This document shows, one piece after another, positions 6,592 to 8,564 of a stretch of 64,000 bases of DNA (the first letter of the stretch is position 1; the number at the start of each line of letters is the position of its first letter). The stretch lies in assembly GCA_024638645.1 (NCBI GenBank), contig JAHEJX010000005.1, positions 1-64,000 of the forward strand, written 5' to 3'. Source of the DNA: Actinomycetes bacterium. Its GTDB lineage: Bacteria; Actinomycetota; Acidimicrobiia; Spongiisociales; UBA5794. The position numbers and the translations under genes are program-made. A model generated the notes under the pieces. The model was given only the letters and a program-made list of their open reading frames with translations, was not told the origin of the DNA and did no database searches.

Positions 6592-7206
6592 ATGGACCGC
6601 ACCACCCGCGACTGGCATTACGCAGACGACGAGATTCTCGTCGACAAGGTTGTTGTCGGCCCACTCGAGAACAACGTGTTTCTGCTCGTCGACCCCGCCA
6701 CTCGAAAGTCAATCGTCATCGACGCAGCAGCGGATGCGCCGCTCATCCTCGAGATGGCGAACGGCACCGAGGTCCAGGCTGTGCTGACAACTCATGGCCA
6801 CTGGGACCACGTGGGCGCCGCCGTCGAGGTGGGCGAAGCGCTCGATGTCCCGGTCTTCATCGGACCGCAGGACAAGGCCATGAGCAAGTTGCCGCACGCA
6901 TCCGACCTCAATGCGGGCTCCATGACTCTCGGTGAGCTCGAGCTCGAGATAATTGAAACCCCGGGACACACCCCAAGCTCTCGCTGCGTCAAGGTCGGGC
7001 ATCTCATCTTCACCGGCGATACGCTCTTCCCGGGAGGGCCAGGAGCGACGCAGTCGCCGAATGACTTCAAGATGATCATGGAGAGCCTGGACAACAAGCT
7101 CTTCACCCAGCCCGACGAAACCATGATCCTGCCTGGCCACGGACTGGACACGACAATTGGCCGTGAGCGCCCGGACGTTGAGGAGTGGAGGGCTCGCGGC
7201 TGGTAG
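6592..7206 (+). CDS. Metallo-beta-lactamase-fold hydrolase (glyoxalase II-like)
   Basis: 204 residues with the binuclear metal motif THGHWDH (about residues 67-73), a later TPGHTPSS (third His), FTGDTLF (bridging Asp) and LPGHG (last His). The order and length match small glyoxalase II-like hydrolases acting on thioesters or related substrates in the cytoplasm. It stands alone, just upstream of the 102-bp repeat array. The exact substrate is unknown. Confidence 0.9.
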   Translation: MDRTTRDWHYADDEILVDKVVVGPLENNVFLLVDPATRKSIVIDAAADAPLILEMANGTEVQAVLTTHGHWDHVGAAVEVGEALDVPVFIGPQDKAMSKLPHASDLNAGSMTLGELELEIIETPGHTPSSRCVKVGHLIFTGDTLFPGGPGATQSPNDFKMIMESLDNKLFTQPDETMILPGHGLDTTIGRERPDVEEWRARGW

Positions 7207-7233
7207 CACGACGAAACTGCAATCGACGGATCA

Positions 7234-7641
7234 AAGGCCGATGAAATCGGCTTGGAGTTCGATGCAATCGAACTCCACCACAGGCACTACACAGAGCTAT
7301 TGAGGAGATGCAATAGCAAGTCGGATTGATGGTCAAAGGCCGATGAAATCGGCTTGGAGTTCGATGCAATCGAACTCCACCACAGGCACTACACAGAGCT
7401 ATTGAGGAGATGCAATAGCAAGTCGCATAGATGAGCCAAGGCCGATGAAATCGGCTTGGAGTTCGATGCAATCGAACTCCACCACAGGCACTACACAGAG
7501 CTATTGAGGAGATGCAATAGGAAGTCGCATAGATGAGCCAAGGCCGATGAAATCGGCTTGGAGTTCGATGCAATCGAACTCCACCACAGGCACTACACAG
7601 AGCTATTGAGGAGATGCAATTGGAAGTCGGATTGATGGTGG
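7234..7641 (+). repeat. Four tandem 102-bp units; the last contains the RBS, start codon and first nine codons of the next gene
   Basis: Units at 7234-7335, 7336-7437, 7438-7539 and 7540-7641. The first 80 nt of each unit are identical in all four copies. Each unit folds into three hairpins: GCCGAT-gaa-ATCGGC, GGAGTTCGAT-gca-ATCGAACTCC, and CTATTG-aggagatg-CAATAG, the last holding GGAG and an ATG in its loop. In units 1-3 that ATG is followed by CAA TAG. In unit 4 it is CAA TTG and opens the luciferase-like gene, with the third hairpin weakened. Variation lies in the last 20 nt. This fills the 407 nt between the flanking genes. Confidence 0.97.
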
Positions 7642-8564
7642 AGCCGCAGGCGGGCGGTACTTATGACGAGCTTTGTGAGTTGGCGCAGTGGGCTGACCGC
7701 GCCGGCCTGGCTTCGTTTGCGCGCTCCGACCACTACCTCAACGGCGAGTCGTCCGATTCGGCGACGGATGCGCTGACTTCGTTCGGCGGCCTCGCTCGGG
7801 AAACCGAGGACATCAAGCTGACGGTCCTCGTCACTCCCCTCACCTTCCGTCACCCGGCAGTGATTGCGAAGACTGCCGCCACCCTCGACGAGATGTCAGG
7901 TGGACGGTTCGAGCTCGGCGTCGGCACCGGCTGGATGGAGAGCGAGCATGAAAAGCTCGGCATCGAGCTCCCCGACTTGCGAACCCGTTTCAGCCTCCTC
8001 TACGAAACGCTGGCCTTTGTGAGCACCGCCTTCGGCCGGGAGGAAGAGTCGACCTACCGCGGGCGGCACCACCATCTCGACGTGCCGGACGTCAAGCCCA
8101 AGCCGGCCAATTGCCCGATCATCATCGGCGGAGGAGGACCGAAGAAGACGCCGCGCCTCGCCGGGCGCTTCGCCGACGAATACAACATGTTCATGACGGA
8201 CCCGGAGACACTCGCGGGCCGCCTCGAGCACATGCGGGCCAGCGCCACAGAGAGCGGCCGTGACCCCGACTCCATCAAGCTCTCGATGATCTCTCAGGTC
8301 CTCGGCGGTGCGGACGCGGCCGAGTACCGCACCAATCTCGAAGTCGATGCCGCGCGTCGCGAGATGGACCCGGGCGAGCTCGAGGACCGCTACCGCGGCA
8401 GGGGAATGTTGTGTGGCACCCACGAGCAGATCGCGGAACGTGTCGGCGAGATAAGGGACATGGGCGTGGGCCGCCTCTACATCCAGTACTACGCCGATCT
8501 GGGTGACATAGACCGCACCCGCATGGCCGCCGACATCGAAGCCGTCCAGGCGGCCGCAGGATGA
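7614..8564 (+). CDS. LLM-class (luciferase-like) F420-dependent oxidoreductase
   Basis: 316 residues of the luciferase-like monooxygenase / F420-dependent oxidoreductase TIM-barrel family. Visible marks are LEVGLMVEPQ at the N-terminus, ARSDHYLNG, the VLVTPLTFRHPAVIAKTAATLDEMSGGRFELGVGTGWMESEHEKLG block and the PIIIGGGGPKKTPRLAGRFADEYN block. These enzymes use F420 or FMN for hydride transfer; the substrate is not predictable. The ATG at 7614 is preceded by GAGGAG, and both lie inside the fourth 102-bp repeat unit. The stop overlaps the next gene as ATGA. Confidence 0.93.
   Translation: MQLEVGLMVEPQAGGTYDELCELAQWADRAGLASFARSDHYLNGESSDSATDALTSFGGLARETEDIKLTVLVTPLTFRHPAVIAKTAATLDEMSGGRFELGVGTGWMESEHEKLGIELPDLRTRFSLLYETLAFVSTAFGREEESTYRGRHHHLDVPDVKPKPANCPIIIGGGGPKKTPRLAGRFADEYNMFMTDPETLAGRLEHMRASATESGRDPDSIKLSMISQVLGGADAAEYRTNLEVDAARREMDPGELEDRYRGRGMLCGTHEQIAERVGEIRDMGVGRLYIQYYADLGDIDRTRMAADIEAVQAAAG

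Follow-up and report, generated by a model that had tools for sequence, protein, structure and literature searches.

Results

A tandem array lies between an MBL-fold hydrolase gene and an oxidoreductase gene

The window, that is, the whole 64,000-nt stretch of DNA analysed, lies in contig C136 of an Acidimicrobiia MAG (4.1 Mb in 215 contigs, 84.7 % complete). It carries an operon-like pair, an MBL-fold hydrolase gene followed by an F420-type luciferase-like oxidoreductase gene, and inside this pair sits an array of four head-to-tail units. The features of the locus are as follows.

6592..7206 (+), MBL-fold hydrolase gene (PF00753), glyoxalase-II-like
7207..7233 (+), unique 27-nt stretch from the MBL stop codon to the array
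7234..7335 (+), unit 1; TAG 7314–7316 at the position of the gene's probable start codon
7336..7437 (+), unit 2; TAG 7416–7418 at the same position
7438..7539 (+), unit 3; TAG 7518–7520 at the same position
7540..7641 (+), unit 4; enters the gene and bears its probable working start
7236..7276 (+), double-hairpin core (REP-like), copy 1; covariance model R1, 71.8 bits; covariation over 24 elements
7338..7378 (+), double-hairpin core, copy 2 (model R1)
7440..7480 (+), double-hairpin core, copy 3 (model R1)
7542..7582 (+), double-hairpin core, copy 4 (model R1)
7608..7613 (+), oxidoreductase Shine–Dalgarno sequence GAGGAG, 6 nt ahead of TTG 7620
7620..8564 (+), F420-type luciferase-like oxidoreductase gene (PF00296, homologues), probable start TTG 7620

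The nearest NCBIfam model to the oxidoreductase is TIGR03560, with a score (227.4 bits) slightly under the cut-off of 231.4. Of 29 homologous loci, 19 have the same MBL gene as the immediate upstream neighbour of the oxidoreductase gene, in the same orientation and with 10–46 nt from its stop codon to the oxidoreductase start. In three congeners, whose oxidoreductase proteins are ~69–73 % identical, the gap is 17–18 nt and holds no array, as compared with 413 nt here; the array at this gap was observed in this genome only, and at none of the homologous loci examined, those of the congeners included.

Unit-by-unit comparison of the assembled sequence and TRF (7229–7637, 102-bp unit, 4.0 copies, 96 % matches, no indels) both bore out the four 102-bp units at 7234–7641 reported in an earlier note. 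The identity of the first part of the units also held, although it extends over 81 nt rather than the 80 nt claimed. All eight variable columns (82, 84, 91, 94, 99, 100, 101 and 102) fall within the last 21 nt of the unit; if the differences were randomly placed, all eight would lie in the last 22 nt with P ~5e-6. This confinement is not fully explained, and requires homogenisation, recent duplication or multi-base events. As proposed in the note, the full 102-bp unit was searched for in its own genome, where it was found at this locus only.

The longest exact repeat in the array is 99 nt, so the assembler required longer words or long reads to build it. With an assembly in 215 contigs, this leaves some room for an artefact in which the real genome has fewer units, but the tails that differ from unit to unit argue against a purely artefactual array, as do comparable arrays in other genomes, and we judge such an error to be quite unlikely. 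An open frame of 156 aa also spans the array on the minus strand (7103–7573), and with a third-position GC of 0.41 it is probably non-coding. That the array encodes a repetitive peptide in this frame is scarcely credible: the unit length of 102 is a multiple of 3 and no stop codon interrupts the frame within the array, but third-position GC reaches 0.82 in the adjacent oxidoreductase ORF, and the frame extends into the end of the MBL gene. This ORF was rejected as coding on the basis of its codon composition.

The gene probably starts at TTG 7620

An NTG codon (ATG, GTG or TTG) is aligned with TTG 7620 in all 29 homologues, most of which also have a GGAG-type Shine–Dalgarno-like motif at the matching place a few bases upstream. 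Because of this conservation, TTG 7620 is probably the start of the oxidoreductase gene rather than ATG 7614, which has zero spacing from GAGGAG. The earlier note took the ATG as the start, followed by CAA and an immediate TAG stop in the upstream units, a reading that these alignments make improbable. With a start at TTG 7620, the TAG of units 1–3 would replace the start codon itself and not the third codon, and unit 4 would be ancestral at this site. The difference between TTG in unit 4 and TAG in units 1–3 is thus real, while its direction is probably the reverse of that proposed, from TTG to TAG in the other units. The claim that the upstream copies are unable to start the gene is supported, and GAGGAG is retained in all four units.

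Predicted folding of the units

Each unit folds better than shuffled sequences (z −3.1 to −4.3). Three hairpins per unit had been described; two strong ones formed in all four units, while the third, with GGAG and ATG in its loop, formed in units 1–3 and occurs at this locus only. In units 1–3 the third inverted repeat, around AGGAGATG, carries two changes, one at column 82 (T to A), which lengthens it from 4 to 6 bp, and one at column 84 (G to C), which brings it to 7 bp. The Shine–Dalgarno sequence lies in the hairpin loop, with a mean unpaired probability in silico of 0.62–0.79 across all four units. Being mostly unpaired everywhere, it does not fit the idea of an RBS-sequestering hairpin weakened in unit 4, and the predicted folding does not support a strong Shine–Dalgarno sequestration switch. 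A search of the array against Rfam 15 gave no match above chance (best 11.8 bits, as compared with a gathering score of 47).

The core of the unit belongs to a dispersed double-hairpin family

Two adjacent hairpins, GGCCGATGAAATCGGC-TT-GGAGTTCGATGCAATCGAACTCC, with loops of 3 nt, mostly GNA, make up the initial ~43 nt of every unit. This core matches elements scattered in other genera of the family, most notably the genus g11. A different family of the order has matching elements as well, one of which (genome G064) is 98 % identical to the core over 41 nt; the genomes with the same element that were identified by name are Acidimicrobiia MAGs. Allowing one mismatch, the second-hairpin pattern was matched in 27 of 99 relatives and a reversed control pattern in none, while a search for the strict double hairpin in 296 genomes drawn from across the class gave matches in the window's order only. 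Over 24 distinct elements, 96.6 % of cells were paired and changes on both sides occurred in 7 of 17 pairs, as compared with 2.4 in shuffles; both core stems are therefore supported by the covariation that the earlier note had suggested looking for. With no more than 66 candidates scored per genome, model R1 matched at least 66, 50, 39, 27 and 23 elements in five g11 genomes (G045, G049, G042, G037 and G029, respectively), from which the model itself was partly built; in the own genome its matches were limited to two arrays and one or two weak, isolated ones.

Copies in sister genomes lie mostly outside genes, and many adjoin gene 3′ ends or sit between convergent genes. In a census of 92 elements, which used crude ORF-based gene calls, counted tandem copies and had no null model, 52 lay no more than 60 nt from the 3′ end of a gene, and 15 contained the end of the gene to their left. 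These 15 elements supply the stop codon, usually as NNN-GGC-TGA or GGC-CRA-TGA (L082:4053, L139:4025, L086:2146, L064:1457, L153:3753, L021 and L009 are among them); their shared frame may simply reflect the sole frame with an early stop. In the five g11 genomes the family is REP-like, with 3-nt loops and neither a GTAG tag nor a Y1 transposase; it has no visible mobiliser and sometimes supplies the stop codon of the adjoining gene.

No mobilising enzyme was found for the family: Y1 transposase (Y1_Tnp, PF01797; RAYT) was detected in 0 of 13 genomes, while the positive controls were detected. The exact double hairpin had no match in viral contigs, nor had the array in a blastn search against plasmids. 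Among the openly accessible papers searched, judged by title and abstract, none described the family for Acidimicrobiia.

Other arrays are built from the same core and unrelated local DNA

A second array of the family is present in the own genome (G000; C180:4524–4835, also L134:2025–2336), with 41-bp units followed by 83-bp units, the 83-bp-period part spanning C180:4623–4830. It is flanked by the 3′ ends of a TrpB-like gene and of a convergent ORF whose sequence resembles histidine kinases, and its first unit includes the stop codon of the TrpB-like gene. In relatives, the array periods are 41, 48, 53, 63, 68 and 86 bp, and the spacers are unrelated and locus-specific. One array (L148:3176–3469, G042:C10) mixes 48-, 63- and 111-bp periods from single and double hairpins. 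The varied periods and unrelated spacers indicate that units are made in situ from the palindrome and adjoining local DNA, which in the window's array is the RBS and the gene start. Since copies are mostly intergenic and the second array sits at gene 3′ ends, the family is unlinked to gene starts. The alternative that the note itself had raised, an ordinary dispersed palindromic family without a link to starts, thus largely holds for the core, but dispersal does not extend to the complete 102-bp unit.

These results bear on the suggestion that units 1–3 tune translation of the oxidoreductase, either as RNA-binding modules or by presenting decoy ribosome-binding sites. All units keep GAGGAG and fold well, and units 1–3 have lost their starts without any change in their first 81 nt. 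Nevertheless, the array is confined to one genome: neither the three congeners nor any other homologous locus examined has it. It gave no Rfam match above chance; its repeat family is unlinked to starts, with many elements placed next to gene 3′ ends or in the space separating convergent genes; and a kept Shine–Dalgarno sequence is expected anyway under recent duplication. We found no positive support for a decoy or riboregulator role and consider it unlikely; that selection removed the extra starts and kept the Shine–Dalgarno sequence, with copy number tuning the downstream enzyme, would be very unlikely.

Discussion

Relationship to known REP systems

Like GTAG-tagged REPs, BIMEs and REP clusters (PMC3733652), a paper in which the word Actinobacteria is absent, the present family consists of paired short palindromes, intergenic and often near gene 3′ ends, that are tandemly iterated with local flanking DNA and patchy among related species. 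It forms hairpins with compensatory variation and, in sister genera, has many dispersed copies mostly outside genes. In contrast to GTAG REPs it lacks the terminal unpaired tag: 3 of 153 loci have GTAG in the 6 nt preceding the element, and none is visible at the window's copies. The associated Y1/RAYT transposase is likewise absent from the 13 genomes. CGTC-tagged REPs (PMC3733652) also have no dedicated transposase, but their tag is absent, as judged by eye, from the element ends here, and their loops are of 4–5 nt rather than 3 nt. Because the tag and the Y1 transposase are absent, we call the family REP-like and not a proven member of the GTAG/RAYT system.

A proposed history of the array

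We favour, with a probability of roughly 0.85, a history in which a REP-like palindrome in the intercistronic gap was followed by local tandem duplication that took in the RBS and the gene start. Given the observed array, its repeat family, the homologous start codon, the short gap of the congeners and the second array in the own genome, we infer the following steps. A REP-like double hairpin would have entered the short MBL–oxidoreductase gap before any duplication; this step is drawn from three fairly distant congeners, and no intermediate holding a lone palindrome at this place was found. The duplicated segment would have run from the palindrome through the local linker and the RBS into the first ~22–27 nt of the oxidoreductase gene, and the palindrome may have promoted the slippage or unequal exchange that brought the copies to four. 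The earlier proposal that a leader was multiplied together with the beginning of its gene is supported in this respect.

Unit 4 would have retained the ancestral TTG start, while in the extra copies the start would have decayed from TTG to TAG, lengthening the arms of the third inverted repeat. Either quasipalindrome template switching or the relaxed or selective loss of false starts fits this change. In keeping with quasipalindrome template switching (e.g. PMC7202029), the changes T to A and G to C in units 1–3 both lengthen the inverted repeat, although with two substitutions at one locus this is a proposal rather than a demonstrated event. Any effect on the mRNA would be at most passive and REP-like, in that the MBL transcript may be stabilised and its coupling to the oxidoreductase gene lowered.

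The suggestion of an undescribed regulatory system is not supported, as the core is a dispersed intergenic palindromic repeat that also forms arrays elsewhere. The array looks like ordinary genome repeat behaviour and not a new control system, with the gene's start signal apparently carried along in the amplification by accident. The locus would indicate that a REP-like palindrome can pull the initiation region of a gene into a tandem array, and the array may be read as a natural record of the decay of surplus start sites.
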